IMG/VR virus record: IMGVR_UViG_3300037485_002045
Location: 1-31,964 of that record
Length of the DNA: 31,964 nt
Source: a virus
Direction: 5' to 3' (one strand)
Positions 2,983 through 28,433 of the stretch are shown here, in pieces (positions within the stretch are counted from its first letter, which is position 1; each line of letters begins with the position of its first letter). Under the pieces are notes generated by a model, which was not told the DNA's origin, searched no databases, and saw only the letters and a list, made by a program, of their open reading frames with translations. The position numbers and the translations under genes are program-made.

Positions 2983-5900
2983 TTACTTCTCTCCAGCCAC
3001 GCTGATCACCGGCGGCATCGCCCGCAGCGCGTTGCGGATGTAGGTCAGGCGCTCCTGCAAGTCCTGCTCCTTGCTCGAGCGCAGGCTGTTGGCGATGCCA
3101 ATCGCATCCTGCTTGTCGATCGTCCAGCGTTGGTTCTTCCCGACCAGCGCGTAGCGCAGGGCGTTCTTGCTGAACTGACCGCGCTTCGCGTTGTGGGCCA
3201 GCTGAGCGCGGCTGAGGCCTAAGCTCTGCATTGCTCCGGCAAACGAGGCAGCCTGCGACTGGATCCGGTTTGAAGCATCCTGCGCGGAGTTTAGGGCGTC
3301 GGCGACATCCTCCTCTGAGGCGTAGCGTCCGGACATGACCGGATAGCGCAGCTGGCTAACCGCGTTGGCTTGGCGTGCAAGGTTCCGGAATCCGGATACG
3401 GCAACGTCTTCCTTCTTGCGGATGGCGATGCGCGCTCCGGTCAGTTCGCCGACGACGATGTCGAAGGCTTGATCCTCTCCGGTGCGGAACATCTGCGTGA
3501 CCTTGCCGACCACCGACGGAGTGAGGGTCTTACCTAACACATGAGCGGTGAGCTTGTAGACCTGCTCATGCAGCGGCTCGCCGGACACCGCGATCGGATT
3601 GCCGAAGTCATCCGTGTTGGTGATCGCGTTGAGCACCCCACCGGTCGCGATCTGCGTTCCGATCAGGTTGTTCTTCACGTAGTCAACGAGGCGCTCCGGA
3701 TTGACGCCGTCTCCGGCTCGGAGATCCTCAATGATCAGCGCGACAGGGTCGGTGAAGATCGAGTGCGGCATGATCGAGGACATGTCGATGATGTGGAGAT
3801 CCCCGCCGACCGAGCGGATGAACAGCTGGTGGGCTTGCTGCCAGAGTGGCAGGCCTTTGCGCACCGCCGAGCGTTCCGCGACGGTGAGCTCACGGGTCTC
3901 GCCGCCTTCCTTTTCCTTGTCCTCCTCGTCGCCGAAGCCCAAGCCCGCTTTCGCTGCACCGATGAGACCGTAGAGACCGGTGTAGGCCAGCGCCGCAGCC
4001 ATCGATCCTACGCTGATAACAGCGGTCGCCGAGCTGATCCGACGCCAGCCACGCCGGATCAGTACCGGATTCTTCGACTTGATCTCCTCGACGCCTTGGC
4101 GGTAGTTGCCAATCGTTGTACGAATGACCTCGGTCTTCCAACGTGCGAACGGGAAGATGAGCTTCGTGATCATGCTCTGGTTAAGAGCCCGCACCATGTC
4201 CCACTGCTGCGAGTGGGTCGGCATCGTGCGCTTCGTGATGTTGGCAGCCTCGCGCTTGAGTTCCATCATGCGGTCGACGTCGCCGGAGGCAACACGCGGG
4301 TCGTCCTTGTAGGCTTCGATGAGCGTGTCGAGTTCGTGCTTGAAGACTTGGATCTTCACCGCGTCGTCGATCACGCCGTTGAGGCCTTGCAAGAAGTCCA
4401 GCGCTTTGCCGCCGCTAATCTGGAGCCTCTTCATGAGGGTCTTCGTGTGCTCCTCGGCAAGAGCCGAGTCACCTTCGACCGCGGCGGTGATGAGGTCGTC
4501 GACGATGTTCAGGTCGGACTCGCTGTGGCCGGAGAGGAACTCCTGCATGAGCTTGCGCGTTGAGCTGTCGGCAATGACCTGTAGCTCGGTAAGCTCCGCG
4601 ACCTCCGCGACCATCTCGCCGGTAGTCCCTTTCTTTCCGAGGAAGTTGGCAATCGATGCGAGCTTGTACGAGTAGCTCGAGTGCTTGTTGATCGGAGAGA
4701 TGCCGACCGACGAGAGCAGCGCCACTTGGTTGGAGAAGGCGTTACGCGTGTAGAAGCCGACCGAACCTAAGGTCTTCGCGACGATCGACCAGCCGACAAA
4801 CTTGCCGAAGCCACTCATCAATCCTTCAACGGCTTCCTGCGTATTGCTCAGGACGAAGCGTCCGTTGTATCCGGTAGCCGCTTGGATGGCTCGGGCAACC
4901 TCAGTATCCACGAAGATACCGGCGATCGGAGCAAAGGCCGGATTGCCCTTGCCGCCGAAGATCGGAACGGTACCGGCAGCCTGAGTCCGGCTTCCGATAC
5001 CGGAGTCCAGAAGGGAGGAACCCATCACCTCGAGGAACTTGGAGTTCGCTGCAAGAGTGCCGACATTCCGATAAGTGGTGAGCAGGTTGACGAGCGGGTC
5101 ATCGACCTCACCCATCAGCGCGCGCAGGCGTGCGTCGAGTTCTCCTTTTGGCATGAAGCGGGCGAGATCCTTCTTGATCGAGCCGGAGGTCTGGATGGTG
5201 CCGCGGATCGATTGCTGCTCAAGATACTCGAGCATGCCGTCGAGGCGTTTGACAACCTCCTCGTGCACCTCATCGTTGGAGATCGTGTCGCCTTTCTCAA
5301 GGGCCTCGGCGCGGATGGCCTCCTCGAAGGCTTCCGCCGCAGTTGCGCGCATCGCGTCGAAGTCGTAGGTGCGACCGTTGAAGGTCTGCTTGCCTGAGCC
5401 CTTCGTTCTTGCCGCCGCAACCCAGCCCTTCGTGGTGAAGAACTGGTAGGTGCGGGTGATGTAAACGCCGGTCGCCTCGTCGTAGCCCAAACGTGCGCTG
5501 AACTGGTCGATCTCCGCACGGAAGTCCGTGATCAAGTCGGAGAGCTGAACGTGTCCGGCGTCGGCAAGAGCCTGCCGAGCGGCAACCGATTTGGCCTCAG
5601 CGGCGGTGTTGTGCTCCTTGCGTGCGTCGCGCATCAATCGCTTGCGCTCGCCTTCGACGGCGGAGTCGAACTCGAAGGTCGTCATCGTGTCCGCGTTGAG
5701 TCCTTCCGCAAAGGCGTCGACCTGCTTCTCAAGCTCCTTCATCGTTGCTTTGCTGATAGGCGCGGAGCTGTCTCCGATCGCGTCGCGGATGGTTTGAAGC
5801 GGAACGTCGGCAGCGATGGCGAGTTTGCCGAGCTTGCTGAAGTTCGTGTAGAACCTGTTCGCCATCAGCTCCATGCGCGAGCGCGTGCCGGTCAGGTCGT

Positions 5901-8900
5901 TGAAGATCTCGCGCGCGCCTTTCGGCAGGTCGATGAAGTTGTCGAATCGCTTGCGCACGCGATCCATGAACCGCTTGCCTTCCGCTCCGTTCTGCGAGCT
6001 GACCTGCAGCTCAAACTCGCTCTGCTCCGAGCCTTCGGTAATCGCGGCGTAGAACTCTGCATGGTGCGACATGACCGGATCCGGTGCCGGAGTCTGCTCG
6101 GCGAAGCCGCCGTTCATAATCTTCTTGTAGGCCCGCTCCGCAGTGGACATGCGCGCGGCAAGGCCGGCTGTAGGCTTTTGCGCGAAGAACTTCTTGAGGC
6201 GCGCGATGTACCGCTTAAGTCCTTCGACGAAGCGCTGCATCATTGTTGGGTTCTTTTTAAGGAACAGCAGATGGGACTCGGAAGTGCTGCCGCTGGCAGA
6301 ACGCTCAAGCTGCATGCGCCACGCTTCGGCAGCGAGCTGGCGGTCGGTCAATGCCCCGCTTGCGCGGTCGCGTGCGAGCGCCTTCTGGCGTGCCTCGTAG
6401 TCCGGATAGGCTACAGAATAGTAGTGGTCGGCGGCAGCGTCGAGTCCGGCCTCGCCGATCTCCGCTGCGTAGGCGTCGTAATCCTGTGCCGACATTACCG
6501 TAGCAGAGGCAGCGTGCGCCACCTCGTGCCCGACGAGCGTCGTCATGTAGGCCTGCGCGTTGTCGGCGGTCAGGCCTTCAAGCGAGTTAGACAGCAGGCG
6601 CTTGTTGAAGTAGATGACATCCGGCGTGTCCTCGCTGTAGGCAAGAGTGCCGGACATCTCCGGCCTCTCGACCATTCGCATGCCTTCCGGAAGGGCCTGC
6701 TTCAGGAATGGTACAGGATCGGTATTAAGGGTAACGGTTTCCGGTTCGCCGGTTACCGCGTAGCTCATGCTCATGTTGTCCCCGTACACAGCGCCCTTTA
6801 CGAATACTGTGTTACCAATCTGGAACGCCTCTGTCCCGCCTACTACCTGCCGGTCGGTTCCGCGCTCATAGTAATACGAGTGCCGGTCAGGATTAAAGCC
6901 AACCTGAGTCCATGACTCTAGATCAGCAGGCATGCTCTGGTCAGCGACCCACTCGCCACGGATGGTGATGTGCGGATCCTTCCCGCTACCTCTTGCAATC
7001 TTCTCCGAGATCTTTTCGTTGGTGACAAACTTCGGGTTGCGGATCTTAGTGGCTGGGCGGTATAGAGTACCTTCTTTAGATACCTGCGTCGTAACCACGC
7101 CGATTCCTGCGCTAGTCATAGACGGCACATCCTGCCGGATGGTTACCTTTTCGCCGTCTTTAGGGCCTCCAGACTTTGCAAGATCCTCGGTGGTTTTGAT
7201 ATGTTTAGCGCGCTGAGCCTTATCTACTGTACTAAGTACTAGTTCTTGTGATGGCAGGTCTGCCATTGACTTTGGCACACTTACCCTTTTAGAAGGGAAG
7301 TGTTCGTTTACTGCGCGGGCCAAAACCTCACGAGGAATAGCTTCACCGGCGGCGCGTCTATCAAGCAGGTCTCGAACAACCGGAGAGTATACTCGCCTAC
7401 CTTCGACGGCAGTGCTAGGAGTATTGGCATAGCGGGCCATGATCCGGCTGTACTCCGCTTCAGCGCCGCTGGTCATCGCATACCGGATGTCGTCACTCGC
7501 CGGATTAAAGCGTTGGCTCAGGGGGATGACTTTGCCGCTAGAGTCACGAGTGACGGGGTCTGAGGACTTGATCCTCGACGGGTCATAGATCCCGAACTCA
7601 TACGCGCCGGACGGTAGGAGTTCCTTGGAGCCATGTACTCCATGCTTAATGAAAAGCTCGCGGGTCTGTTTCTTACCCAACAGTTTAACAAAGGTGCCAA
7701 CTGGCCCACGCCCATCCCTAAGACTCGACACACCCGTGCGCGGCATGTCAGCGTACGAATCGTATCCCGCCTCGATGGCTGCGGCGTCCAGTCTCCGAGT
7801 AACTTCCCCCCAGTGGGTCTGGTCTCTAGATAGTATGTCTATGATGAAAGCATCTTCAGACAACAGTATATCGTGAACCGGCCCGCGCTTTCCGTAGACA
7901 TATTGTGTCATGTCCTTGTCGTCCAGCAGATATATAGCGGGGCCTAGGGCGGCCATACCATTCTCATTCTGCCCGACTCTTCTGAAATCAAAACCACTAA
8001 GGCTGTCGGGGTTCTGCGCGGTGTATAGGTTTCTAATAAACCCAGCAACCCTTGCAGCAGTATTGACCAACCGCTGCACCAGACCCATGTCTCCGGATTC
8101 AACAGCAGCGAGATACTTACTGTCCATCTCCGGCGTCACCGGAGGCTGCGCGCCATCCGCAGCCGGAACCGTGATCGCCGAATAAAGGGTTCCGGTTTCC
8201 GGATCGACTTCCGGCAGATCGTTGAAGTCGATCTCTTCCTCGAGGGACTCCTCGCCGGAGAACCGTGCCTCGGACTCGACCTCCGACCGGACGGTATCAA
8301 GCATCGACTCGATCTGCGAGGCCTTAGACAAAAGAGATGTGGTCAGCTTGTTCTGTGTATCCGGCAAAGCTATAGCAGCAGCCTGCATCCGGCTTAACAC
8401 GCTCTCGATACCGGCGAGCTTCTCGGCGGACTCCGGCGCGAACAAGCTGCGGACTTCATCGTAGTCAGACGAGTCGAGATCCTCGATGCGGTCGGCCATC
8501 TCGCTGATCATCGCGAGCGTCTCGTTGGCGCTGAACGCAGCGATCGGATCCAGCTCGACCGTAGCGGCACCGGCTTCGGCTTCGGCGGCAGGCACTTCAG
8601 CTTCCGTTGCAGCAGCTGCAGCAGCAGGCTCGCCGTAGATAGCCATCATCGCGGCGTTGCCTTCTGCTTTGGTCAGGACTCCGGACTTGACGGCAGCCGC
8701 GACACGATCCTCGATGCGCTTGCGGAAGACCGGCTTCTCGTAGGACTTCGACTGCGGCTCAGTGATGACGTTCAGGCTAACGAGGTTCGCGATGTGGTGC
8801 TTCTTGACCACTCCGGCAACCGCGGCTTCGGCCTCTTGCTCGCTGATCAACTTGTCGCTAAGTAGGCGCAGTACTTTGGCCTCGAGCGCCGCGTTAGGCT

Positions 8901-11900
8901 TCGAAGATGCCGCGATATCGGCTTCCTGTTCAGGAGACAGGATACCGGAAACGGCTGGCTTCGCCGCAACCTCCGGCTCAGCAGCGACGTCTGGATTCTC
9001 CTCGATGTCCAATCCGAGATCCTGCTGCGTCAGTTCCTGCGGTTCGGCTTTGACGCCTCCGGCAATCTTGCCCAACGCGGCGCGGATGTTGCGGCTAAGC
9101 ACTGCGGCATTTTGCAACGAAGCATCCGCGACCGGCTCGACGCTAAGCTCGCGGTTGAGGAACATGACAAGTTCCGGCGAGAGCTTCGTCTTCTGGACAT
9201 CCTTGTCGCCACGAATGTCACCGACGGTCTTGTCGAGTTCCGCTGCCACTGCCCGCAACTCAGCATTGTCATAGTAGCTAGCGGCCTGCGCGTCACCGGT
9301 CTGGTTGGTCCAGCCGTTCTCGGCCATGCCGAAGAAAGGATACCACTTACCGGACTGCGGGCCTCTGGCTTGGGCCTCAGCCTGAGCCTTGCTCTTTGGC
9401 TTAGGAGCGCTGTGCAGGTAGAACGGAACCGCAACGCCGTTGATCCGGCGGACCGTGATCATCCGGCCATTGACGTTGACGACTTGCGCCTCGCCGGTGA
9501 CCGGCTTGTTGACCTTCTCCTTCGAGTCCCACTTGCTAGTCGTGAACGGAATTGCCACCGGACCGGTAGGCTGCATGAAGGCAAGCTCCTCCTGTTTCGG
9601 CATAGCCGTCCTGCCAGCAGCGGCAGGCTTGCCGGTCTCGAGATCGACGCCAAAGTAGCGGGCGGCCTGCTGCATCCTTGCAGGATCGCTGATCGTCACA
9701 TCGCTGATGTGGGGGTTAGCGGGGTCTGGAGACCCGATCATTCTGGCTCCGGCGACGACGATTGACTCTACCCTCCCGCTCTTCTTGTTCCGGATAACGG
9801 ATACAGGATTGACTCCTTCTGCTTTAGCAGGAAACGCGAAACGAAACTTGCCGTCACTGCTGCGGGTGTACGGCGTACCGGCAGGAATGCCGTCGACCTC
9901 TGTGTTGAGTACCGGCAGGGTCTTCGACTTCGGGTTGACGTTGACTTTACGCGCGCTCTGCATGCGGCTGCCGAGGCGGATAGCCTTAATTCCTTCGATG
10001 GCTTTGGTCGGCTTGAAGACCACGTTCTGGCCATCCTCGTCGAGCTCGATCTTACCGGCGGTGTCTTTGTAGAAGACCCGTCGGCCCACAAGATCGTTGA
10101 GCAGCAGGCTTACCGGAGCAAGGGCGCGCGTGTCGCCTAAGTTCAGGTCTCCGTCCACGAGTGTTCCGTTCGGCTCGTGGTCGACAACTCCTGCAGCTAC
10201 GGACACCGCATTGGCCTTCGCGGCGTCGGCGTTGGCACCTGCAGCTACGGCTACTTTGCTCGAGTCGCTGATCTTCTGTGCAAGGGTTTCCGCCGTTGCC
10301 GGACTTCCGGTCTTGCTCATCCGCTCCGCCACGCTATCAAGCAACGAGTCGCGGCTGCGTAAAGCTGCGGACTTGTCAACGTCGCTCAGGCGGGCAGCGC
10401 CTAAGACGGAGGCACCGGTTCCGGCGATAGCGCCCATCAAACCGGCGGTAAAGATCTGCGAGGCCCGCTGCGCAAAAGGCGTCTTACGGTCAAGGGCGGC
10501 ATCTTCGATCTTCAGCTGGAACGCTTGATCGACGCTTTCTTCGATTCCTTCGCTGATTGAACCGCCGCTGACGCTCTTGAAGAAGCGGACAGTTCCGGCG
10601 GTAAGCTCTTTGCGCAGGGCAGTTTGGAACGCCTTGTCGGTTACTTTCTTCGAGCTTCCGACCACGCTCTGGTAGACAGAGCGCAGCTGGCGGTAGCTCA
10701 TGTCCTCTAGACGCAGCAGGCGCTGGCCTGTCTTTGCAACGCCGGAGACGACATCGTCGGCGACTGCAGCGGTGATGCGTCCGGTAGCGAGATCTTCAAG
10801 TCCGCCAGCACCGAAGTAGCTCATGCCTGCCGTAATGACAGCGGTCATCGTGCCGATAGCGATAGCCGCAGGAATGGCCTGCCGGTTCTTTTCGGCGTGC
10901 GACATGTCCTCCGGCAGCTGCGAGTAGATCGAGCCATAGGAGGCAGCGGTGCTGCGGGCAAATGACGAGACCGCAATCGGAGCTGTGCGGGCGAGGCGGC
11001 TGCTCTGTTTGGCTGCGGTCTCTCCGGCTTCGCCTGTAACGCCGGAGGCACCGGCAGGGCCAGCTTTGGCAATTGCACCGGCTTCGGCTTTGGCAATTGC
11101 ACCGGCTTCGGCTTTGGCAATGTGCTTACCTACAACGGACTCTCCGACCTCGCGGATAGCCGCACCAATCTCAGCTTCACCGGCAGCTGCGGCAGCGACT
11201 TTGGCAATGCCGGACTCCGTAGACTCCATAGCGGCGCGGCCTGCAATTCCGAGTGCGGTGCGGAGGGTGAGTCGCTTTGCCACCGCGTCAGCCGTCACCG
11301 TTGCTGCGCGTTTGATCGCGGTTCCAGCTCCGCCGGTCGCAACGGTCAAGCCGATATCGGCGACCAGCTGCGGAACCATGTAAAGGAGGTCGCGGCCTAA
11401 GCCAAACTCGTCACCAAAAATACGGGCATACTCGCGCCGCTGCTCGTCGTCCTTCTGGATGGCGAGCATTGCTTTGGCCGCGCTCTCCGAGCCGAGCATC
11501 GCCGCAGCGGCAACAGGAATCTGGGCAATCGCATTGAACGACGCCATGCCGAGTCCTTCCATCGTGTTCTGGAACTTGCTGTAGTTCTCCGGATTGTTGA
11601 AGTACTCTTTTACGAAAGTCTTATCGTCTTTCCCTTCGGCCTTCGCATTGCTGAAAAGATCGGCTCCGTCGCCGACGTTCGCGATGATCAGATTCTTAAG
11701 ATCCGGCACTTGGTTCTCAAAGGTCAACTCGCGCCGCGCTGCTGCAATGGCGGTCTGCTCCTCCGTAAGGCCTTTGGCCGCTACCGCTGCGTTGAACGCT
11801 TCATCGCGGATAACCACCTCATTGGCGAGAACCGGCAGGCCAAAGGAGTCCATAGCGATACCGGTCTCCGGCTTGTCGGCGTCGTACGTCGGTCCCACAT

Positions 11901-13020
11901 CTGTGGTAAGACGGTCGTCTACCATGCGGTCAATCTGCTCCGAGGTGAAGCGGGTGCGCAGCGCCTTATGGTTGCGCATCCTGTCTTTGACGGAGTCAAG
12001 GTCTCCGGCTGTGGCGGATCTTGCGTCCGGAGTGGCGGCATTCTTGCCCAAGTATTCCCCGACGTTGTGTCCGATTGGATTGATGACGGAGTCGATCTTT
12101 GTAAGCACCCCGCCGGTAACCTTTTCGTCAACGCCCTTTGCGAAATTGTAGGCTCCGCCGAACATGTCGACGCCGAGGTCGACAACTCCGCCGATGAACT
12201 CTCCGGTCTTGCGGAACGCCGCGTCCCCGATACTCTCGTTGGCGTTCCGGTCGGCCTGCGACTTCCACGTACGAGCGCCGTCGTACTCGTCCTTCAAGGC
12301 CTCGTCGCTGGCAAGCTCCTGCTCGAAGAAGCGGTTGAACTCGTCACGCACCTGTAGGTCGTTCCGCGTGGCGCTGCCGATTTTGGAGGATGACTCGAGC
12401 ATCGGCACAATGTCCGACGAACGAATAGCTCCGGTAGCAAGCAAAGTGTCGAAACTGCTGCGAAGCACGCCGTCGTCAACTCCGAAGCCCATGCGCACCT
12501 GACGCTTGCCATCCTTGTCCTCGAAAGCCACAGCGCTAAGCTCGCCGCGATCAACAGCGGAAACCTTTGCCTTCTGCAAGAGTTCCTTGTTTGCAGTAAG
12601 GGCATTGACGGACTCTTCAAGCTCGACGGCGGATTCCGGATAGGCTTGCTTGCGTGCCAGATAGGTTCGCAGCAGCGAGGCGTTTGCAGCGGCCTCCTCC
12701 GGATTATCAAACTCAGCGGAGTCGGACAGGTCGTAGTAGTCCTTGATGAAACGGGCGTCGCTGTCAGTTGACTGGCGTACGTTGAGCGTGTTGTCGAGGA
12801 ACTTGGTCTGGTCCTCCTCGCTCGCGTCATCGCTGATCAGCTTTAGCTTGCGGGCCTTTCCGGCAATGCCGGTAATAAGACCTTGCTCAACATCGGAAGT
12901 ATACTCTCCTGCTTTATAATAGGTGCCGCGCACATAGTCGGCATAACCTTTGAGCTGGTCTTCCGGAGTACCGGTATTTTTTAACGACCAATCGGAGAAC
13001 TTCTTAACGTCGGCAGGCAT
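2983..13020 (-). CDS. Giant polyvalent / internal virion protein (3,345 aa)
   Basis: A single 10-kb gene. The start ATG at 13020 is the first in frame; its upstream region lacks an SD. By resemblance, the N-terminal ~1,000 residues are helical with hydrophobic Gly/Ala segments near residues 547, 724 and 860 and a small tandem repeat (KAEAGAIA) near 640. Residues ~1675-1840 resemble an ADP-ribosyltransferase-like module typical of phage polyvalent proteins (GPAIYLLDD, YEFGIYDPSRIKS, then IPLSQRFNP..DDIRY). Residues ~2020-2075 resemble a large-polyvalent-protein domain (SWTQVGFNPDRHSYYYERG). A zinc-metallopeptidase HEVAH motif is at 2165-2169. A C-terminal helical module with a membrane-like stretch near residue 3000 ends the protein. 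Such proteins are packaged and ejected with phage DNA to process host targets. Transcription probably runs from the - strand promoter region near 15000 and stops at the terminator at 2926-2961. Confidence 0.88.
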   Translation of the reverse strand: MPADVKKFSDWSLKNTGTPEDQLKGYADYVRGTYYKAGEYTSDVEQGLITGIAGKARKLKLISDDASEEDQTKFLDNTLNVRQSTDSDARFIKDYYDLSDSAEFDNPEEAAANASLLRTYLARKQAYPESAVELEESVNALTANKELLQKAKVSAVDRGELSAVAFEDKDGKRQVRMGFGVDDGVLRSSFDTLLATGAIRSSDIVPMLESSSKIGSATRNDLQVRDEFNRFFEQELASDEALKDEYDGARTWKSQADRNANESIGDAAFRKTGEFIGGVVDLGVDMFGGAYNFAKGVDEKVTGGVLTKIDSVINPIGHNVGEYLGKNAATPDARSATAGDLDSVKDRMRNHKALRTRFTSEQIDRMVDDRLTTDVGPTYDADKPETGIAMDSFGLPVLANEVVIRDEAFNAAVAAKGLTEEQTAIAAARRELTFENQVPDLKNLIIANVGDGADLFSNAKAEGKDDKTFVKEYFNNPENYSKFQNTMEGLGMASFNAIAQIPVAAAAMLGSESAAKAMLAIQKDDEQRREYARIFGDEFGLGRDLLYMVPQLVADIGLTVATGGAGTAIKRAATVTADAVAKRLTLRTALGIAGRAAMESTESGIAKVAAAAAGEAEIGAAIREVGESVVGKHIAKAEAGAIAKAEAGAIAKAGPAGASGVTGEAGETAAKQSSRLARTAPIAVSSFARSTAASYGSIYSQLPEDMSHAEKNRQAIPAAIAIGTMTAVITAGMSYFGAGGLEDLATGRITAAVADDVVSGVAKTGQRLLRLEDMSYRQLRSVYQSVVGSSKKVTDKAFQTALRKELTAGTVRFFKSVSGGSISEGIEESVDQAFQLKIEDAALDRKTPFAQRASQIFTAGLMGAIAGTGASVLGAARLSDVDKSAALRSRDSLLDSVAERMSKTGSPATAETLAQKISDSSKVAVAAGANADAAKANAVSVAAGVVDHEPNGTLVDGDLNLGDTRALAPVSLLLNDLVGRRVFYKDTAGKIELDEDGQNVVFKPTKAIEGIKAIRLGSRMQSARKVNVNPKSKTLPVLNTEVDGIPAGTPYTRSSDGKFRFAFPAKAEGVNPVSVIRNKKSGRVESIVVAGARMIGSPDPANPHISDVTISDPARMQQAARYFGVDLETGKPAAAGRTAMPKQEELAFMQPTGPVAIPFTTSKWDSKEKVNKPVTGEAQVVNVNGRMITVRRINGVAVPFYLHSAPKPKSKAQAEAQARGPQSGKWYPFFGMAENGWTNQTGDAQAASYYDNAELRAVAAELDKTVGDIRGDKDVQKTKLSPELVMFLNRELSVEPVADASLQNAAVLSRNIRAALGKIAGGVKAEPQELTQQDLGLDIEENPDVAAEPEVAAKPAVSGILSPEQEADIAASSKPNAALEAKVLRLLSDKLISEQEAEAAVAGVVKKHHIANLVSLNVITEPQSKSYEKPVFRKRIEDRVAAAVKSGVLTKAEGNAAMMAIYGEPAAAAAATEAEVPAAEAEAGAATVELDPIAAFSANETLAMISEMADRIEDLDSSDYDEVRSLFAPESAEKLAGIESVLSRMQAAAIALPDTQNKLTTSLLSKASQIESMLDTVRSEVESEARFSGEESLEEEIDFNDLPEVDPETGTLYSAITVPAADGAQPPVTPEMDSKYLAAVESGDMGLVQRLVNTAARVAGFIRNLYTAQNPDSLSGFDFRRVGQNENGMAALGPAIYLLDDKDMTQYVYGKRGPVHDILLSEDAFIIDILSRDQTHWGEVTRRLDAAAIEAGYDSYADMPRTGVSSLRDGRGPVGTFVKLLGKKQTRELFIKHGVHGSKELLPSGAYEFGIYDPSRIKSSDPVTRDSSGKVIPLSQRFNPASDDIRYAMTSGAEAEYSRIMARYANTPSTAVEGRRVYSPVVRDLLDRRAAGEAIPREVLARAVNEHFPSKRVSVPKSMADLPSQELVLSTVDKAQRAKHIKTTEDLAKSGGPKDGEKVTIRQDVPSMTSAGIGVVTTQVSKEGTLYRPATKIRNPKFVTNEKISEKIARGSGKDPHITIRGEWVADQSMPADLESWTQVGFNPDRHSYYYERGTDRQVVGGTEAFQIGNTVFVKGAVYGDNMSMSYAVTGEPETVTLNTDPVPFLKQALPEGMRMVERPEMSGTLAYSEDTPDVIYFNKRLLSNSLEGLTADNAQAYMTTLVGHEVAHAASATVMSAQDYDAYAAEIGEAGLDAAADHYYSVAYPDYEARQKALARDRASGALTDRQLAAEAWRMQLERSASGSTSESHLLFLKKNPTMMQRFVEGLKRYIARLKKFFAQKPTAGLAARMSTAERAYKKIMNGGFAEQTPAPDPVMSHHAEFYAAITEGSEQSEFELQVSSQNGAEGKRFMDRVRKRFDNFIDLPKGAREIFNDLTGTRSRMELMANRFYTNFSKLGKLAIAADVPLQTIRDAIGDSSAPISKATMKELEKQVDAFAEGLNADTMTTFEFDSAVEGERKRLMRDARKEHNTAAEAKSVAARQALADAGHVQLSDLITDFRAEIDQFSARLGYDEATGVYITRTYQFFTTKGWVAAARTKGSGKQTFNGRTYDFDAMRATAAEAFEEAIRAEALEKGDTISNDEVHEEVVKRLDGMLEYLEQQSIRGTIQTSGSIKKDLARFMPKGELDARLRALMGEVDDPLVNLLTTYRNVGTLAANSKFLEVMGSSLLDSGIGSRTQAAGTVPIFGGKGNPAFAPIAGIFVDTEVARAIQAATGYNGRFVLSNTQEAVEGLMSGFGKFVGWSIVAKTLGSVGFYTRNAFSNQVALLSSVGISPINKHSSYSYKLASIANFLGKKGTTGEMVAEVAELTELQVIADSSTRKLMQEFLSGHSESDLNIVDDLITAAVEGDSALAEEHTKTLMKRLQISGGKALDFLQGLNGVIDDAVKIQVFKHELDTLIEAYKDDPRVASGDVDRMMELKREAANITKRTMPTHSQQWDMVRALNQSMITKLIFPFARWKTEVIRTTIGNYRQGVEEIKSKNPVLIRRGWRRISSATAVISVGSMAAALAYTGLYGLIGAAKAGLGFGDEEDKEKEGGETRELTVAERSAVRKGLPLWQQAHQLFIRSVGGDLHIIDMSSIMPHSIFTDPVALIIEDLRAGDGVNPERLVDYVKNNLIGTQIATGGVLNAITNTDDFGNPIAVSGEPLHEQVYKLTAHVLGKTLTPSVVGKVTQMFRTGEDQAFDIVVGELTGARIAIRKKEDVAVSGFRNLARQANAVSQLRYPVMSGRYASEEDVADALNSAQDASNRIQSQAASFAGAMQSLGLSRAQLAHNAKRGQFSKNALRYALVGKNQRWTIDKQDAIGIANSLRSSKEQDLQERLTYIRNALRAMPPVISVAGEK

Positions 13021-20824: not shown

Positions 20825-21186
20825 ATGATAGCCCGTTAAACTTATCTCGCGTTGCTATTACGGTAACTGAGAAGTATGTCCAGTATACTTGCGCCGACGA
20901 CTCAGTCGAAGACTGGCTTACGCGCGAAGACCGCACGCGGCTATGGCACGAGTTCCTCAACGTCGGGCAGTACATGCGCTATCTCCATGCGGAGATCGTC
21001 TACGGCGAGAGCCGAGCCGGTATGACATCCGCCAACTTCCACTTCAGCGACCGCAAAGCCGCAGCGGCTGCTTATGATAAGATTATGTTTGACGCAGTAG
21101 AGTTAATCAGAATCCGGATTCAGGAATCCGGTGAGGCTAACTGGATCGACATACAGGATTACGATTACGATACCACTAACCTCTAA
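20821..21186 (+). CDS. Hypothetical protein (121 aa)
   Basis: ATG 20821 overlaps the previous TGA by four bases. Soluble acidic protein with VAITVTEKYVQYTCADD, a central TREDRTRLWHEFLNVGQ helix, and an Asp/Tyr-rich C-terminus (DIQDYDYDTTNL). No motif identifies a function. Its place between the pyrophosphohydrolase and the helicase suggests an accessory replication or regulatory role, by context only. Confidence 0.6.
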   Translation: MNDSPLNLSRVAITVTEKYVQYTCADDSVEDWLTREDRTRLWHEFLNVGQYMRYLHAEIVYGESRAGMTSANFHFSDRKAAAAAYDKIMFDAVELIRIRIQESGEANWIDIQDYDYDTTNL

Positions 21187-21191
21187 TAGCT

Positions 21192-21482
21192 ATGGAAGGA
21201 TTTGGAGCAGGAAAAGGATCATTGCCACGCGCTGTCGACGGCGAGACCTTCCGTGATCGGTTCAGCAGCATCGACTTCTCGTCACTACGCAAACAGGAAA
21301 CTATGGAACCGGAAGGACAAGCAGGAGTGGAGAAGCCAGAGGATGTAGCGAAGCTGCGCCTGCGCATGCTGGCCCACTGGTGTGAGAAGCGCGCCTCCGG
21401 CGAACATGATACCGCAACCACAGTGACGATGTTGCGCAAGAAGGTGGAGGAACTCGCCAAAGCAATTAGTCGTGTCAGATAA
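21192..21482 (+). CDS. Hypothetical helical protein (96 aa)
   Basis: Five bases after the previous stop. An N-terminal flexible Gly-rich stretch (EGFGAGKGSLPRAVDGE) is followed by a charged helical C-terminus with coiled-coil features (MLRKKVEELAKAISRVR) and a KLRLRMLAHWCEKRASG segment. It could be a small accessory partner of the downstream helicase, but no family is recognised. Confidence 0.55.
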   Translation: MEGFGAGKGSLPRAVDGETFRDRFSSIDFSSLRKQETMEPEGQAGVEKPEDVAKLRLRMLAHWCEKRASGEHDTATTVTMLRKKVEELAKAISRVR

Positions 21483-21666
21483 TAGGCAAGTAATACTTGA
21501 CGCAATGAAGGCTGAGTTCTTCAAGCGTGCGAGTAAGGAGCCTCGTTATGTTAGCGATGAGTACTCCTATCTACTGGATCAGTTACAGGAAGCCATAATC
21601 TATTTACAAGAAGACTTAATAAATAACAATGAAGACACTATTTCCGAAGCAACAGGAGTCAGTTGA
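21472..21666 (+). CDS. Small helical protein (64 aa) overlapping the helicase start
   Basis: The frame starts at GTG 21472 inside the end of the preceding gene (or at ATG 21505) and runs 38 bases into the helicase gene. The product is acidic and helical (SYLLDQLQEAIIYLQEDLI) and looks like a natural small protein, not a shadow. Overlap on both sides is consistent with translational coupling in this compact operon. Function unknown. Confidence 0.5.
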   Translation: MSDNRQVILDAMKAEFFKRASKEPRYVSDEYSYLLDQLQEAIIYLQEDLINNNEDTISEATGVS

Positions 21667-23965
21667 CTTCCTGTGCGCCGCGCTCAACAAGCACAACGGC
21701 GCGCTGGACTCCAGCCTGACCGGTACCGGCAAGACGGTCGTGGCGTGCGCGGTGGCGCGGCAGATGAAGGTACCGGTTGCGGTCATCTGTCCGAAGATCG
21801 TTATGCCCCACTGGCGGCGTGAGCTTGCCGAGTTCGGCATCGAGCCTGTCTTTGTTCTCAACTACGAGAAGCTCAAACGCGGAACAGAGCATCTGGTTAA
21901 GGTTACCAAGAAGATGTTCCGCTGGCAGCTACCGGCGGACACGCTGCTGATATTTGACGAGGTACACAACTGTTTGCCAGAAGGCACCCGAGTGGCCACC
22001 CCGACAGGGCATACTCCTATTGAGCTTCTTAAGGTAGGTGATTTTGTGGAAACGCCAGCCGGACCGAGGCGAGTAACCGGTCATGTATTCACAGGATCAA
22101 AATCTTTTTGCATTGTGCACCATCAAGGTGGCGTAATAGTCTCTTCGCATGACCACAAAATACTCACCCAAGAAGGATGGACCGAAGCGGTTCAAATCAC
22201 CGAACGGCACTGTTTGGTCTTGCCAGATGTGCGGGATTCCGGTCTGCAACAAGAACTCGAAGATGTGCCGACCCTGCGCACACCAAAGCCGTCGGGTGCT
22301 AGCAAAGAAGACCTGCGAATGGTGCGGGGAGGACTATTTCAGGACTCCCTCCAAATTGGCGACGACCTCGTGCTGCTCACGGAGTTGCGCACAGAGTCTT
22401 CGTGGGTCGACGCTGACTTCCGAAGAACGTCAACAGCGTCGAGACATAATGAGTCATACGCTGCGTACGCACCCGAGCTGGACGCAAAGATGGGAGGATA
22501 TGAGAGGGGAGGGGAACCCTATGAAGTCTCAGGAAGTTCGGGAGAAGGTATCGGCAGCTCTAAGGGGAGTTCCGCGCGAGCACCTGAACGGCGGGAATGG
22601 TACGGGGTTAACCAAGCCTCAGCGCCTTTTGATGGAAGCCTTACCGCAGGAGTGGACCCCAGAGTATGTAGTATGGGGGAGGGGGGCCGTGAAGGTGTGG
22701 CCGTTGATGATCGTAGACTTAGCTATCCAAGAGAGGAAGTGGGCTATAGAAGTGGACGGGGCATCCCACAACTCGATAAAAGTGCGGGAGAGGGATTCTC
22801 GGAAGGATCAATTACTGGCAGATGCTGGGTGGAGCGTATTTCGGGTGACGAACAAAAAGATATTGGAGGATCTAGACCAAGCCCTCTTAGATATTCAAAA
22901 GTTCTTCGAGTCGAAATAAGTGAAGACATGCTCCCGTGCTACGATATATCGGTCGATGAAGTACCTTGCTTCTTTGCCGAAGGCGTACTAGTGCATAATT
23001 GCAAAGGGGCATGGACACAAAATGCCCAGATGCTCATCGCCGCAAAGCAGGCCGGTCTCAAGTGCCTGTTGCTCTCCGCCACTGCCTGCCAAGACCCGAC
23101 GGAGATGCGGGCTATCGGTTACGTGTTAGGCCTACACAATCTCAACCGACCGGACGCCGACAGGCAGAGCTGGTTCGGTTGGATGATGAAGTTAGGCTGC
23201 AAGAAAGATCCTTGGAACAACTGGAAGGCAGGCCCGCTGTCGCGCTTGAAGGAACTCAACGCGCAGATGTACAAACAGAACGCCGTCAAGCTGACACCGG
23301 CTGACTTGCCGTCCGCGTTCGCCGACAACCACATCATCACCGAACCGTTGGAGTTCGGATCGCTAAAGGACATCGCCGCTTTCTACAAGACCCACGGCGT
23401 GACTCCGGAAATCATCGAGGCCGCGATGGAAGGCATGTCGCCGGAGCCCCATATCCTCGTTGAGATCCTCCGCGCACGCCAACTCGCCGAGGCGGCGAAG
23501 GTGCCGGATATCGCGAACATGATACAGGATGCGTGTGCCGAAGGCTACAGCGTGGTCGTGTTCGTGAACTTCATCGACACCGTAAAGGCGCTGCACGCCA
23601 GCTTTCCGGACGCGTCTATCATCGTCGGCGGCCAGAACGCGGACAACCGTGAGGAGCATGTCCAACGGTTCCAACGCAACGAGACGAACGTCATCATTGC
23701 CAACATCGCCGCCGGAGGAGTCGGCGTTAGCCTGCACGATACTGACGGTTCGTACCCTCGGATGAGCCTGATTTCCCCGACTTTCAACGTCAAAGACTAC
23801 ATTCAGACGTTAGGCCGCATCCACCGCAACGGGGCCAAAAGCCCTGCTACACAAAGGATTCTGGTCGCGTCTAACACCATCGAGGAAAAAATAATCGCTG
23901 CCCTTGAAAAAAAACGCTTGTCAATGGACACGCTTCACGCGCAGTCTCCTGCAGCTAACAGTTAA
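21629..23965 (+). CDS. SNF2-type superfamily 2 helicase containing an intein
   Basis: A 778-residue precursor; removing the 343-residue intein leaves a 435-residue helicase. Motif I LTGTGKTVVA (~residue 31), a SNF2-like VICPKIVMPHWRREL, motif II DEVH (~110-113), then in the C-terminal half motif III-like LLLSATA, motif V NVIIANIAAGGVGVSL and motif VI QTLGRIHRNG. It should be an ATP-driven DNA translocase in phage replication or recombination. The intein is inserted directly after DEVHN, at the Walker B site. ATG 21629 is preceded by AATAAATAACA, with no SD. A RecB-like nuclease gene follows 12 bases after the stop, so the two may act together in recombination. Confidence 0.9.
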   Translation: MKTLFPKQQESVDFLCAALNKHNGALDSSLTGTGKTVVACAVARQMKVPVAVICPKIVMPHWRRELAEFGIEPVFVLNYEKLKRGTEHLVKVTKKMFRWQLPADTLLIFDEVHNCLPEGTRVATPTGHTPIELLKVGDFVETPAGPRRVTGHVFTGSKSFCIVHHQGGVIVSSHDHKILTQEGWTEAVQITERHCLVLPDVRDSGLQQELEDVPTLRTPKPSGASKEDLRMVRGGLFQDSLQIGDDLVLLTELRTESSWVDADFRRTSTASRHNESYAAYAPELDAKMGGYERGGEPYEVSGSSGEGIGSSKGSSARAPERREWYGVNQASAPFDGSLTAGVDPRVCSMGEGGREGVAVDDRRLSYPREEVGYRSGRGIPQLDKSAGEGFSEGSITGRCWVERISGDEQKDIGGSRPSPLRYSKVLRVEISEDMLPCYDISVDEVPCFFAEGVLVHNCKGAWTQNAQMLIAAKQAGLKCLLLSATACQDPTEMRAIGYVLGLHNLNRPDADRQSWFGWMMKLGCKKDPWNNWKAGPLSRLKELNAQMYKQNAVKLTPADLPSAFADNHIITEPLEFGSLKDIAAFYKTHGVTPEIIEAAMEGMSPEPHILVEILRARQLAEAAKVPDIANMIQDACAEGYSVVVFVNFIDTVKALHASFPDASIIVGGQNADNREEHVQRFQRNETNVIIANIAAGGVGVSLHDTDGSYPRMSLISPTFNVKDYIQTLGRIHRNGAKSPATQRILVASNTIEEKIIAALEKKRLSMDTLHAQSPAANS
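21971..22999 (+). mobile_element. Intein in the helicase (343 aa), carrying a nested endonuclease gene
   Basis: Residues 115-457 of the precursor. Block A is CLPEGTRVATPTGH with Cys1; block B is SSHDHKILTQEGW; block F and G are CYDISVDEVPCFF and EGVLVHN, followed by Cys+1. Cys1, a block B histidine, penultimate His and terminal Asn are all present, so splicing should work as in class 1 inteins. Between blocks B and F the intein frame gives a long hydrophilic Gly/Arg/Ser-rich stretch with no LAGLIDADG or HNH motif. In the +1 frame over the same bases lies a complete homing endonuclease (22149-22919). Insertion next to the DEVH box makes clean loss difficult. Confidence 0.9.
22149..22919 (+). 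CDS. Nested Vsr-like (EDxHD-type) homing endonuclease in +1 frame of the intein
   Basis: 256 residues read from ATG 22149, which overlaps the first His codon of intein block B, to TAA 22917-22919 just before block F. Tandem stops TAA TAG (22134-22139) precede it in this frame, so it needs its own initiation. Domains: two zinc-knuckle regions (CQMCGIPVC..CRPC and CEWCGEDYF..CCSRSC); a NUMOD3-like stretch (GEGNPMKSQEVREKVSAAL); and a Vsr/DUF559-like nuclease with TKPQRLLMEAL, MIVDLAI, AIEVDGASH, RKDQLL and GWSVFRVTNKK. The acidic and His residues fit the EDxHD homing nuclease family. It probably cuts intein-less helicase alleles to drive intein spread. My rough estimate for 257 stop-free codons in a random frame is about 5 in a million, so both frames are under constraint. 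Confidence 0.88.
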   Translation: MTTKYSPKKDGPKRFKSPNGTVWSCQMCGIPVCNKNSKMCRPCAHQSRRVLAKKTCEWCGEDYFRTPSKLATTSCCSRSCAQSLRGSTLTSEERQQRRDIMSHTLRTHPSWTQRWEDMRGEGNPMKSQEVREKVSAALRGVPREHLNGGNGTGLTKPQRLLMEALPQEWTPEYVVWGRGAVKVWPLMIVDLAIQERKWAIEVDGASHNSIKVRERDSRKDQLLADAGWSVFRVTNKKILEDLDQALLDIQKFFESK

Positions 23966-23977
23966 TCAACAGAAACG

Positions 23978-25111
23978 ATGAACAACGAAACCGCAGAAGA
24001 GAGGCCACATGCCGAGTTCTCCCCGTCCGGCATCAAGTACCTGAGCAAGTGCTCCGGCTTCAAGGGCCGCGACGGAACTTCCGAGGCTGCCGAGAAGGGC
24101 AACCGCATCCACGCGGCGCTCGAGACCGGAGACATCTCCGCGCTACAGAGCGAGGAGGAGGTCAGCATCCATGACCGCTGCAAGGCTGACCTTGACGCGG
24201 AACTTATGCAGCTTTTGGAGAACACCGGAGTGGAGCCTATCATCCACATGGAAGAGCGCCTTCAGATTCAGCTCGACCATACCCGCACCTTCGGTACTGC
24301 CGACGTCGTAGCTGTTTCCGGTAACTCCTGTTTGTTGTTAGACTTCAAGACCGGCGTGTCGAAGATCGACTGCCCGCCGCAGAACTTTCAGGCAACGGCC
24401 TACGCTATCGGAGTCTTCCAGAAGTTTCCGGAAGTCGACGTCATCAAAGCGGTCTTCAGCATTCCGGTGCGCGGCGAACTTCTTTCCGGATTCTACAACC
24501 GCAGCGAGCTGGCGACCTACACCGCTGAACTCTCACAGATCATCTGCCGCGCTGAGCGTGTCCGGCCACTCTGGTACACCGGCGAGCAGGACATTGATAA
24601 CCTCAATCCTAGCACCGACTGCCGCTTCTGCATGTTCGAGGATCGCTGTCCGGCATTGGGCGCGGTCGCCATCGACGTCGCTACCCGCTATAAGCCTGAG
24701 CTGCTGCCGGACGGGCCTATCCATTCGAGCGACATTGAAGATCCGGCTACGCTCGAGAAGCTCTACGTCGTCGCCAAGATCGTCGAGGAGTGGGCCAGCG
24801 GCATCAAGCACAAGGCAGTGCGTCTTGCAATGGAAGGCACTGAGTTTGAAACCCTCCGGCTGCGCTCGATGGGTTCCCTCAAGAAGACCGAGGACAAGAA
24901 CAGCCTCGCGCAACTTGCAATGCAGCACGGCCTTACGCTGCAGGACGTCATCGAGGCAGCTGACCTGACGGTTACGCAGCTCTCCAAAGCGATCCACGAC
25001 CGCGCGCCGAAAGGCAAGAAGACTCATGAGGTCGAATCATTCGAGTCGTCCGCCGTCGACTTGGGCATCGTCACTATCGGCAACAAGCGTTTCACGCTAA
25101 CCGCCAACTGA
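23978..25111 (+). CDS. RecB/Cas4-like PD-(D/E)XK nuclease (DUF2800-like)
   Basis: 377 residues. SPSGIKYLSKCSGFKG, EKGNRIHAALE, then the nuclease core GTADVVAV...LLLDFKTG (Asp and Asp-Phe-Lys) and the QATAYAIGVF motif typical of RecB-family nucleases. A C-x2-C-x5-C cluster (CRFCMFEDRC), together with an upstream Cys in KCSGF, fits the iron-sulfur site of Cas4/AddB-type enzymes. Likely a DNA end-processing exonuclease in phage recombination, acting near the SNF2 helicase. ATG 23978 lies 12 bases after the helicase stop, with the A-rich CAACAGAAACG leader and no SD. A long antisense frame here is a shadow. Confidence 0.87.
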   Translation: MNNETAEERPHAEFSPSGIKYLSKCSGFKGRDGTSEAAEKGNRIHAALETGDISALQSEEEVSIHDRCKADLDAELMQLLENTGVEPIIHMEERLQIQLDHTRTFGTADVVAVSGNSCLLLDFKTGVSKIDCPPQNFQATAYAIGVFQKFPEVDVIKAVFSIPVRGELLSGFYNRSELATYTAELSQIICRAERVRPLWYTGEQDIDNLNPSTDCRFCMFEDRCPALGAVAIDVATRYKPELLPDGPIHSSDIEDPATLEKLYVVAKIVEEWASGIKHKAVRLAMEGTEFETLRLRSMGSLKKTEDKNSLAQLAMQHGLTLQDVIEAADLTVTQLSKAIHDRAPKGKKTHEVESFESSAVDLGIVTIGNKRFTLTAN

Positions 25112-26192: not shown

Positions 26193-28433
26193 ATGATTAC
26201 CTACGCTTTAGACTTTGAATCCTATTACGATGACGAGTGCTCGATTACGACCGCAGGCCCGCGCGGCTACTTCTCGCATCCTTCCTTTGACGCCTACATG
26301 GTGACCGTCGTCGGCGATGACGGGTTTGTCTACGCCGGACATCCAAAAAATTTCAACTGGCCGATGCTGGCCGGACACCGCGTGCTGATGCACAACGCAT
26401 CCTTTGACGAGAGCCTCTACCTGTACGGCGTCGAAGCCGGATGGTATCCTAAAGTCGAGTTCGGAGAAGTGCATTGCACCGCCGACATGTGCGCCGCCCT
26501 CGGCAAGCCGCGCAGCCTGAAGAACGCAACCGCTGAAGTGTTCGGCCTCGAGGTTCTCAAGACCACGCGGGACAACATGAAAGGCAAGCGTTGGGAGTCG
26601 ATGTCGGAAGAGTTCCGCAAGGAGGTCACCGAATACGCGATCAAGGACTCCGAGCTTTGCTTGCGCCTCTGGCAGGAGCTCTCCGACGGCTGGTCGGACT
26701 TCGAGCGAGCAGTCAGCGCGACGAACCGCCGGATCGGCCAGCGTGGCGTCCCGATGGATCAGAACCTGCTGCACAACAATTTGGGCAAGATCAAGAAAGC
26801 CCTTTACGACGCGGAGCAGGCCATCCCTTGGATTGGCGAGTATACTCCACTCTCGCGCAAAGCGTTCAACGCGCAGTGCCGCAAGGAAGGCATCACGCCT
26901 CCGGTGTCTCTTGCTCAGGACAGTGAGGAGGCCGACAAGTGGTTCGCCGAGCACCAGAAGGCCTGCCCGTGGGCTCGCGCGGTGCAGAGCTACCGCCGGA
27001 TCAATGCCTTCATGCGCAAGCTCGAGTCCTTTGCGGCAGGAACAATGCCGGACGGTCGCTTCTACGGCGGCTTCATGTACTTCGGAGCCAACCCTACCGG
27101 TCGCTTTAGTGGCAGCGGCGGCAACCTGAACCTGCAGAACCTTCCGCGCGGCGAGATGTTCGGCGTGGACTTCCGCAGCATGATCCGACCGAAGGACGGC
27201 TACAAGCTCATCATTGCCGACTTGTCGCAGATCGAAGTGCGCACGCTGTGCTGGTGGGCACAGGACAAGGAAGCCCTCGAGGAGATACGCAAGTCGCCGG
27301 ATATCTATCATGCGTTCGGCGTGCTGCTCGGCTTGCACGATCCGGCCAACGGCCCGCTCAAAGAGTATAGCTCCGACCTCCGGTCACAGGTAAAGATGCT
27401 GACCTTAGGCTGCGGGTTCGCGATGGGGCCTAATGGCTTTGCCGCGAAGGAGGGCATACCTCTCGAGGAGGCCGAGCGCAACGTCGGCCTGTACCGGCGG
27501 AGGATGAAGAAGATTGTGAAGTTGTGGTCGAAGCTCGACGAGGACTGCCGCATGGCCCACGCGCTTGAGCAGCCTCTGACAGTCACGCTGCCGTCCGGCA
27601 GGACAATGGACTACGGCATGCTTAAGCGGATGCGTAACCGGCACGGCTATTTCGAGTACATCGGCAAGATGGTGCGCAACGGAGCCCGCCGCGACTTCCG
27701 CATATGGAAAGGCCTACAAGCTGAAAACTGCTTGGCCGGAGATACCCTTGTATTATCCGACTCCGGATGGAAGCCTATTGTAGCTGTCACTGAGTCGGAC
27801 AAGCTGTGGGACGGGGAAGAGTGGGTATCCCATAGGGGCCTTATCAGCAATGGTCTCCAGCCCGTCATCGAGTGCCACGGAGTTATCTGCACTCCGGATC
27901 ACGAGTTCCTAGACGGCGGGGAGTGGAAATTAGCCCAACAATTAGCCTGTCAGAATCTTTCTGGTAAGGTCTTATTGCCGAATGGAACCCTCAAAGATTG
28001 CGGGGGACATACTGGATCTAGCTCAGTCGAACGGGGTAAAAGATTCAACTCTGAGGTACCGCATAGCCTCAGGATGGCCGATAGGGCTAGCCGCGACAAT
28101 TCCTGCGAACGCCGCGAACCGGTATACGACATTAGGGATTGTGGAAAAAGGAGCCGGTTCGTAGTTATGGGGCATGCCGGTGAGATCCTTATCGCCCACA
28201 ACTGCTCCCAAGCCCTAGCCAGAGACATCTTCGCCGACATTATGGTGCGCGTAGAGGATGCCGGATACCGGATCGTTATGCACGTGCACGATGAACTCAT
28301 CGTCGAGGTCGCGGAGGATGCGGCCGAAAAGGCGCTCACCGACATTCAACGAATCATGGCCACGCCTCCGGAATGGATTCCGGATATCCCCCTATCGAGC
28401 GACGCCCACATCGAAGACTACTATTCTAAATAA
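26193..28433 (+). CDS. polA: Family A DNA polymerase with 3'-5' exonuclease and intein
   Basis: A 746-residue precursor; 588 after removal of the 158-residue intein. The proofreading exonuclease is intact: LDFESYY (Asp-x-Glu), HNASFDESLY and YAIKDSELCLRLW. Polymerase motif A is ADLSQIEVR; motif B is RSQVKMLTLGCGFAMG; motif C is HVHDELIVEV after the intein. Aligning motif B with E. coli Pol I puts Leu at the position of Phe762, a variant linked in viral metagenomic studies to a temperate or slow-replicating lifestyle. The intein lies between QAEN and CSQALARD, between motifs B and C. It should replicate the phage genome with the downstream primase-helicase. There is no SD before ATG 26193. Confidence 0.92.
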   Translation: MITYALDFESYYDDECSITTAGPRGYFSHPSFDAYMVTVVGDDGFVYAGHPKNFNWPMLAGHRVLMHNASFDESLYLYGVEAGWYPKVEFGEVHCTADMCAALGKPRSLKNATAEVFGLEVLKTTRDNMKGKRWESMSEEFRKEVTEYAIKDSELCLRLWQELSDGWSDFERAVSATNRRIGQRGVPMDQNLLHNNLGKIKKALYDAEQAIPWIGEYTPLSRKAFNAQCRKEGITPPVSLAQDSEEADKWFAEHQKACPWARAVQSYRRINAFMRKLESFAAGTMPDGRFYGGFMYFGANPTGRFSGSGGNLNLQNLPRGEMFGVDFRSMIRPKDGYKLIIADLSQIEVRTLCWWAQDKEALEEIRKSPDIYHAFGVLLGLHDPANGPLKEYSSDLRSQVKMLTLGCGFAMGPNGFAAKEGIPLEEAERNVGLYRRRMKKIVKLWSKLDEDCRMAHALEQPLTVTLPSGRTMDYGMLKRMRNRHGYFEYIGKMVRNGARRDFRIWKGLQAENCLAGDTLVLSDSGWKPIVAVTESDKLWDGEEWVSHRGLISNGLQPVIECHGVICTPDHEFLDGGEWKLAQQLACQNLSGKVLLPNGTLKDCGGHTGSSSVERGKRFNSEVPHSLRMADRASRDNSCERREPVYDIRDCGKRSRFVVMGHAGEILIAHNCSQALARDIFADIMVRVEDAGYRIVMHVHDELIVEVAEDAAEKALTDIQRIMATPPEWIPDIPLSSDAHIEDYYSK
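27729..28202 (+). mobile_element. Mini-intein in the DNA polymerase (158 aa)
   Basis: Precursor residues 513-670. It begins CLAGDTLVLSDSGWKPI (block A, Cys1), has block B as CTPDHEFLDGGEW (TxDH), and ends PVYDIRDCGKRSRFVV (block F), then EILIAHN followed by Cys+1. All class 1 splicing residues are present. There is no in-frame endonuclease. A second frame, +1 relative to it, encodes a 60-residue helix-turn-helix protein (27982-28164). Confidence 0.9.
27982..28164 (+). CDS. Nested 60-aa HTH protein in the +1 frame of the polymerase intein
   Basis: ATG 27982 to TAG 28162-28164, lying between intein block B and the end of block F. It includes LAQSNGVKDSTLRYRIASGW then PIGLAATIPANAANR. I recognise this as the helix-turn-helix that accompanies phage homing endonucleases (pattern: hydrophobic-x-NG-x-x-STLR-x-RI-x-x-GW, then a Pro-containing end). 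No nuclease domain is attached, so it is either a decayed endonuclease remnant or a stand-alone DNA-binding protein. Sixty open codons alone could arise by chance (about 5% by rough estimate), so the call rests on sequence resemblance and on sharing the register of the helicase-intein nested gene. Confidence 0.6.
   Translation: MEPSKIAGDILDLAQSNGVKDSTLRYRIASGWPIGLAATIPANAANRYTTLGIVEKGAGS

Follow-up and report, generated by a model that had tools for sequence, protein, structure and literature searches.

How can one stretch of phage DNA hold an intein in one frame and a complete nuclease gene in another? This question is raised by a virus record of 31,964 bases (IMGVR_UViG_3300037485_002045; the whole stretch is called the window below), in which a helicase gene contains an intein and the intein in turn contains a nested nuclease open reading frame. 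In-frame fusion is the textbook arrangement for an intein endonuclease, and split-intein loci are the known exception. We interpret the locus as a mobile intein whose homing endonuclease is a gene of its own, overlapping the intein in the +1 frame; splicing, cutting of the empty site and initiation within the intein are presumed. We assign this reading a probability of roughly 0.87. It is based on the following computational results: both frames are open, the layout is conserved, selection is frame specific, the intein motifs and folds as well as the nuclease residues and fold are present, and Vibrio relatives carry a homing footprint. In mechanistic terms the helicase frame would be translated throughout, with the N-terminal and C-terminal parts of the intein joined by a long disordered linker, and the intein would splice itself out to leave an intact helicase. 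A second initiation inside the intein on the same message would yield a free Vsr-like nuclease, which would cut intein-free helicase alleles, whereupon the element could be copied in by repair. On this reading the linker is protected only against stop codons, and the ends of the overlap are dual coding.

The intein and the nested nuclease

The features of the locus are collected in Table 1. Reading the sequence and its open reading frames again, we found the coordinates given in the initial annotation to be right, as were the intein of 343 residues, the +1 nuclease frame of 256 residues and the two stops upstream of it.

Table 1. Features of the helicase gene, its intein and the nested nuclease gene in the window
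Feature	Position	Strand	Remarks
Host ORF, SF2-type phage DNA helicase, 778 aa including the intein	21629–23965	+	ResIII, Helicase_C; phrog_62, phrog_16 DNA helicase
Helicase Walker A, TGTGKT	21719–21736	+	
Helicase Walker B region, DEVHN	21956–21970	+	
Intein, 343 residues, between DEVHN and CKGAW	21971–22999	+	Intein_splicing, Hint_2, intein_Cterm matches
N-terminal splicing part	21971–22175	+	Block A CLPEGTRV; block B region SHDHKILTQEGW from 22145; predicted HINT fold, pLDDT >90
Tandem stops TAA TAG in the nuclease frame, just 5′ of the ATG	22134–22139	+	
Nuclease ORF, +1 frame, 256 aa	22149–22919	+	C-terminal Vsr-like/EDxHD domain; DUF559, MTES_1575 matches; profile and structure searches
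5′ overlap	22149–22232	+	Nuclease start and remainder of intein block B on common bases
Nuclease Cys pairs CQMC; CEWC; CSRSC	22221–22232; 22314–22325; 22374–22388	+	
Nuclease linker motifs NPM and GGNG		+	
Nuclease catalytic-domain motifs EVDGASH; GWSVFR	22749–22769; 22827–22844	+	
3′ overlap	22895–22919	+	Intein strand SKVLRVEI and nuclease C-terminus IQKFFESK-stop; strand assigned by inspection
C-terminal splicing part	22937–22999	+	Block F CYDISVDEV from 22937; block G GVLVHN, 22982–22999
C-extein, second helicase half	23000–23965	+	Helicase_C

The intein begins with Cys1 (21971–21973) and ends with Asn (22997–22999), and the +1 residue is Cys (23000). With Ser59-x-x-His62, CYDISV and VHN the remaining splicing motifs are in place as well. 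Family, profile and structure searches all recovered the intein parts, confirming the assignment of blocks A, B, F and G, of Cys1, of the His-Asn pair and of Cys+1. In the predicted model of the intein the two ends adopt a HINT fold with pLDDT >90, for which the best structural matches are the gp41-1 intein (6qaz) and MchDnaB-1; the linker (about residues 98–280) has a pLDDT of about 45, and because of this linker the pTM of the model is only 0.50. We also considered a group I or II intron, which is rejected because the host frame is open through the insert and because an Rfam search of positions 21000–24500 with E up to 0.1 gave no match and hence no catalytic intron RNA.

For the nuclease the profile matches included 3hrl (E 5e-12) and 3r3p, that is I-Bth0305I (E 0.006), and the predicted structure (pLDDT 85.8) again had I-Bth0305I (3r3p) as its best match with an E of 5e-4. 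The residues D190, E201, D203, H207 and D216 are invariant across 54 nucleases, and the catalytic fold together with these conserved acidic and His residues marks the window nuclease as EDxHD/Vsr-like. The protein had been annotated as a Vsr-like/NUMOD3 nuclease; family, profile and structure searches uphold the first part of this label, and Pfam did not recover NUMOD3. A PHROGs match to residues 116–149 is named HNH endonuclease.

The tandem stops exclude read-in from upstream in the nuclease frame. The nuclease ATG had been placed over the block B histidine codon. It does lie within the block B region, on the codon of His60 (22148–22150), but according to the intein alignment the invariant block B histidine is His62 (22154–22156). 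A second contig of the same phage (IMGVR_UViG_3300037488_001341) is 99.94% identical to the window and base for base the same in the nuclease region. This contig, together with the lack of in-frame relatives (see below), rules out a frameshift introduced by a sequencing error.

Two other observations were made in the window. The gene of a family A DNA polymerase (26193–28433) has a second, mini-intein-like insert of 158 residues at 27729–28202 (QAEN / CLAGDT...LIAHN / CSQAL), and in this insert the six-frame listing contains no long nested open reading frame on the same strand. On the minus strand positions 2983–13020 encode a protein of 3,345 residues with no strong Pfam family and a weak match to the mycobacteriophage L5 gp82 family.

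Nesting, stop codons and selection in the relatives

With the nuclease as query, tblastn matched 40 phage records. Seven of these were inspected (CP-T1, 159E43-1b, MR14, K391, 1.088.O, phi673 and 104E43.1), and in all seven the nuclease is nested at +1 under an annotated helicase whose own frame has the intein ends CF-AGT and VHN-C. Under the nuclease match each of the 40 records annotates only a helicase, another host-gene name or a hypothetical protein; mobile inteins of this kind may therefore be wrongly tallied as endonuclease-free.

We scanned viral and genome contigs with alignments of the nuclease and re-detected the hits uniformly with a profile, which led to 152 distinct nuclease loci. 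One nuclease alignment found five loci in the genome contigs, and a single nuclease protein gave no match there. At 134 of these loci the nuclease lies nested in the +1 frame of a host gene whose own frame is free of stops, and at none of the 152 is it in the +2 register or fused in frame with the intein. As the searches relied on the nuclease alone, they were not biased towards open host frames. These counts bear directly on two ways in which the initial annotation could have failed, namely homologues with the nuclease in frame, which would have meant a frameshift or an error, and a lack of conservation of the +1 frame among relatives; the former were not found, and the +1 frame is conserved in 134 of the 152. 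The nested arrangement is carried by phages of Vibrio, Pseudomonas and Corynebacterium, by many viral contigs and by assemblies of Thermodesulfobacteriota, Alphaproteobacteria and Lachnospiraceae. The host genes include SF2 helicases, a giant SNF2/N6-methylase, a clamp loader of the DnaX type and RecQ-like and UvrD-like helicases. Block A and the C-terminal splice motif are both kept in 119 of the 134 nested loci.

Among the 18 other loci five (L051, L086, L102, L105 and L192) have a split intein whose two halves flank the nuclease. One further locus (L213) has the nested layout with one host-frame stop, which may come from faulty sequencing or mark a form intermediate between the nested and the split state. 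At the rest the nuclease appears to be free-standing, in four cases (L016, L021, L096 and L210) just 5′ of an intein-less helicase gene; in L016 the reading frame of the helicase 3′ of the nuclease is broken (4480–4620) precisely at the DE/HH intein site.

The openness of the host frame was judged by shuffling synonymous codons within each nuclease, which preserves the protein and the codon counts. For the 134 nested loci about 1,258 stops are expected in the host frame and 0 are found, while the third frame has 2,142 stops (1,981 expected). In the 18 non-nested controls the frame corresponding to the host frame contains 378 stops compared with 407 expected. The same holds for the window alone, with 0 host-frame stops versus 8.6 expected (0 of 200 shuffles) and 22 third-frame stops versus 16.6 expected. 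These shuffles rule out a host frame that is open by chance, and the proposal that a single stretch encodes both a stop-free intein frame and a separate enzyme stands. One could still imagine that a free-standing endonuclease inserted into the helicase, leaving it split or dead, with the host frame only accidentally open, as the host-frame stops of the five split inteins might suggest. For the nested class this is contradicted by the missing stops, and the retention of both splice motifs in most nested loci and the excess constraint on an intein strand (see below) argue against it too, so that we find it scarcely credible.

Selection differs between the two frames. In the two closest pairs of loci the differences within the nested region fall on nuclease codon positions 1/2/3 as 6/1/35 (L005/L006) and 4/3/20 (L003/L008); outside the nested region the corresponding numbers for the host codon positions are 64/36/251 and 27/3/122. 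A dN/dS-like ratio was computed for both frames, a comparison suggested with the initial annotation; in these pairs the nuclease frame has values of 0.07 and 0.14 and the host frame values of 2.86 and 2.85. In nine more distant pairs the ratio ranges from 0.29 to 0.76 for the nuclease frame and from 1.12 to 2.26 for the host frame. Strong purifying selection thus acts on the nuclease frame in the close pairs, and not on the host frame. We therefore take most of the host frame in the overlap as a linker which is held open and otherwise unconstrained, in agreement with the intein model and its well-predicted ends and poorly predicted linker. To this extent the in-frame sequence is indeed the hydrophilic filler it was first said to be; both ends of the overlap, however, carry intein elements, namely block B and the strand before block F.

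Intein endonucleases often decay, and mini-inteins without a nuclease occur at the same site in Vibrio phages. The nuclease might accordingly be a decaying passenger, a frameshifted relic of an ordinary in-frame intein endonuclease. Yet none of the 152 loci has the nuclease in frame, the five catalytic residues are invariant, the ratios of 0.07–0.14 in the closest pairs are low and a second contig has the identical sequence; we consider such a relic most improbable.

In the +1 register a host-frame stop arises only where a nuclease codon ends in T and the next one begins with AA, AG or GA. A T in third position can always be replaced by C without altering the amino acid, so such stops can be removed while the nuclease protein stays as it is. 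In the other register 63 of 72 nucleases would necessarily have a TGA, since they contain a Met with Ile, Met, Thr, Asn or Lys as the next residue. The amino acid changes needed in the other register are a suggestive reason for the constancy of +1, which common descent from a single origin explains equally well. Hydrophobicity as the cause was rejected, the mean hydropathy being −0.92 in the host frame and −0.88 in the third frame.

Dual coding and initiation of the nuclease

In 122 nested loci the nuclease motif GWxVxRF overlies a host-frame intein strand, RVESVEI, which is kept beyond what synonymous resampling of the nuclease yields; in one column, for example, Glu reaches 67% compared with 17% expected. 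The mean number of strand matches is 5.38 of 7 in the nested loci (null 3.16; above the null in 118 of 122) and 5.60 in the five split loci (null 3.33), and it is 3.00 in 12 non-nested, mostly free-standing loci (null 2.94). As the pattern was derived from the nested loci themselves, the argument is carried by the null and by the free-standing loci and not by the raw score. The loci are moreover related, which makes the per-column probabilities too strong even though the effect sizes are large, and the free-standing contrast is the better control. It also replaces a third-frame version of the test, which is no independent control because the wobble bases are in common.

The strand segment precedes block F, the predicted intein model has a strand there, and the nuclease-less mini-intein of K389 reads RVKSARY at this position. 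The window itself matches the strand consensus at GWSVFR at only 4 of 7 positions. In its small clade the equivalent strand is by inspection likely SKVLRVEI, beneath the last nuclease codons. At its ends the overlap is truly dual coding.

For the initiation of the nuclease we compared the best nuclease start of each locus with equal numbers of +1-frame starts elsewhere in the host gene. The Shine–Dalgarno-like pairing is −6.07 kcal/mol at the best nuclease start and −4.19 kcal/mol in this background (stronger in 99 of 132 loci, p about 3e-9), and the GAGGT ahead of the nuclease ATG in CP-T1, MR14 and other Vibrio loci is a textbook ribosome-binding site. The window's own nuclease start has a value of +0.5 kcal/mol, with no good Shine–Dalgarno sequence at the usual place and an AAGGTGG about 17 bases upstream. 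This weak start and the overlap of the two frames without a gap would suit programmed ribosomal frameshifting from the helicase frame to +1, by which a fusion of N-extein, N-terminal intein part and nuclease would be made with no separate initiation. In the relatives, however, the ribosome-binding sites exceed the matched background, a correctly placed start codon is nearly always found, and the same nuclease is plainly a gene of its own in the fractured and free-standing loci. Frameshifting is therefore unlikely in our opinion, and we favour a separate initiation of the nuclease within the intein.

Homing and comparison with known systems

In the Vibrio phages the intein is more alike than its flanks. 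Comparing 1.088.O with K391 we find 94.4% identity for the intein and 78% and 80% for the exteins; with 1.027.O the values for 1.088.O are 95.8% for the intein and 78% and 76% for the exteins, and in a third pair they are 97.4% and 93% and 82%. Vibrio phage 1.285.O has an intein-free helicase with a clean empty site, 81% identical to the spliced 1.088.O gene. The combination of an intein more similar than its surroundings with intein-free alleles points to homing, a footprint that comes from the Vibrio relatives and not from the window's own allele. K389 has a mini-intein without nuclease at the same helicase site. A mini-intein is also found at the helicase Walker B site of the Vibrio phages PS65A.1 and 13VV501A (L091 and L093), whose helicases have a second insert with intein-like ends at Walker A (GGGK/GAGK, CHRKGT...TVTHN, TVVA).

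Canonical large inteins such as PI-SceI have a LAGLIDADG or HNH domain fused in frame. The window intein resembles them in being mobile, in having blocks A, B, F and G and in placing the endonuclease between B and F; it differs in that the endonuclease is a separate gene in another frame and stays outside the spliced polypeptide. The nuclease shares with I-Bth0305I and other EDxHD homing endonucleases a C-terminal Vsr-like catalytic domain preceded by putative DNA-binding modules. I-Bth0305I is annotated as a mobile intron protein, whereas the window nuclease is nested in an intein and has N-terminal Cys-pair modules.

In phage methylases Arsenault (2025; PMC11855218) describes ShiLan, out-of-frame HNH genes without splicing domains. 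ShiLan likewise consists of an out-of-frame endonuclease in a stop-free insertion of a phage gene with a mobile distribution, but it has no intein splicing motifs, the insertion is thought to be retained in the protein, and the nuclease is HNH rather than EDxHD; by the definition given there the window, with its splicing domain and EDxHD nuclease, is not of the ShiLan type (PMC11855218). The same paper cites Gosselin et al. 2025 (bioRxiv 10.1101/2025.01.02.630785) and Gorbalenya 1998 for overlapping frames in actinophages, and the actinobacteriophage inteins of 'non-canonical architecture' of the former may be a related arrangement. The initial remark that the arrangement was not known to have been described for inteins thus has to be narrowed in view of close prior art (split inteins and ShiLan, PMC11855218): our literature search found no description of a contiguous intein with splicing motifs that harbours an endonuclease out of frame, and the Gosselin preprint may overlap.

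The nested loci form a third arrangement beside the in-frame and the split one, with 134 distinct loci in which the host protein is whole and the endonuclease has its own gene. They also show two naturally overlapping genes, one of which has its frame guarded almost only against stops, apart from a short segment that is selected in both frames.

A further comparison is with the fractured genes, in which, as Dassa et al. reportedly found in 2009, a Vsr-like homing endonuclease gene lies between the two parts of a split intein; gp41-1, the best structural match of the window intein, is reportedly an intein from that work. Both have an I-Bth0305I-type endonuclease in the middle of a phage intein, and five of the relatives presented here have the fractured arrangement, their host genes being split by stops. 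In the window, on the other hand, the host open reading frame is unbroken by any stop, and one contiguous intein has both frames open between its halves. In a quick nuclease tree (n = 100, midpoint root only, L192 not labelled as split) four related split loci form one clade with a support of 100, grouping with nested loci, the free-standing loci are scattered, and the window pairs with L010 (support 99). A concrete route between whole and split inteins is offered by a nuclease that keeps its register whether or not the host frame has stops, and the fractured state may have arisen from the nested one. On balance we think it rather probable that a widespread class of inteins exists which carries an overlapping +1 homing endonuclease gene, has a nuclease motif and a splicing strand encoded by the same bases and both selected, is largely invisible to annotation and represents the unbroken counterpart, possibly the source, of the fractured genes.
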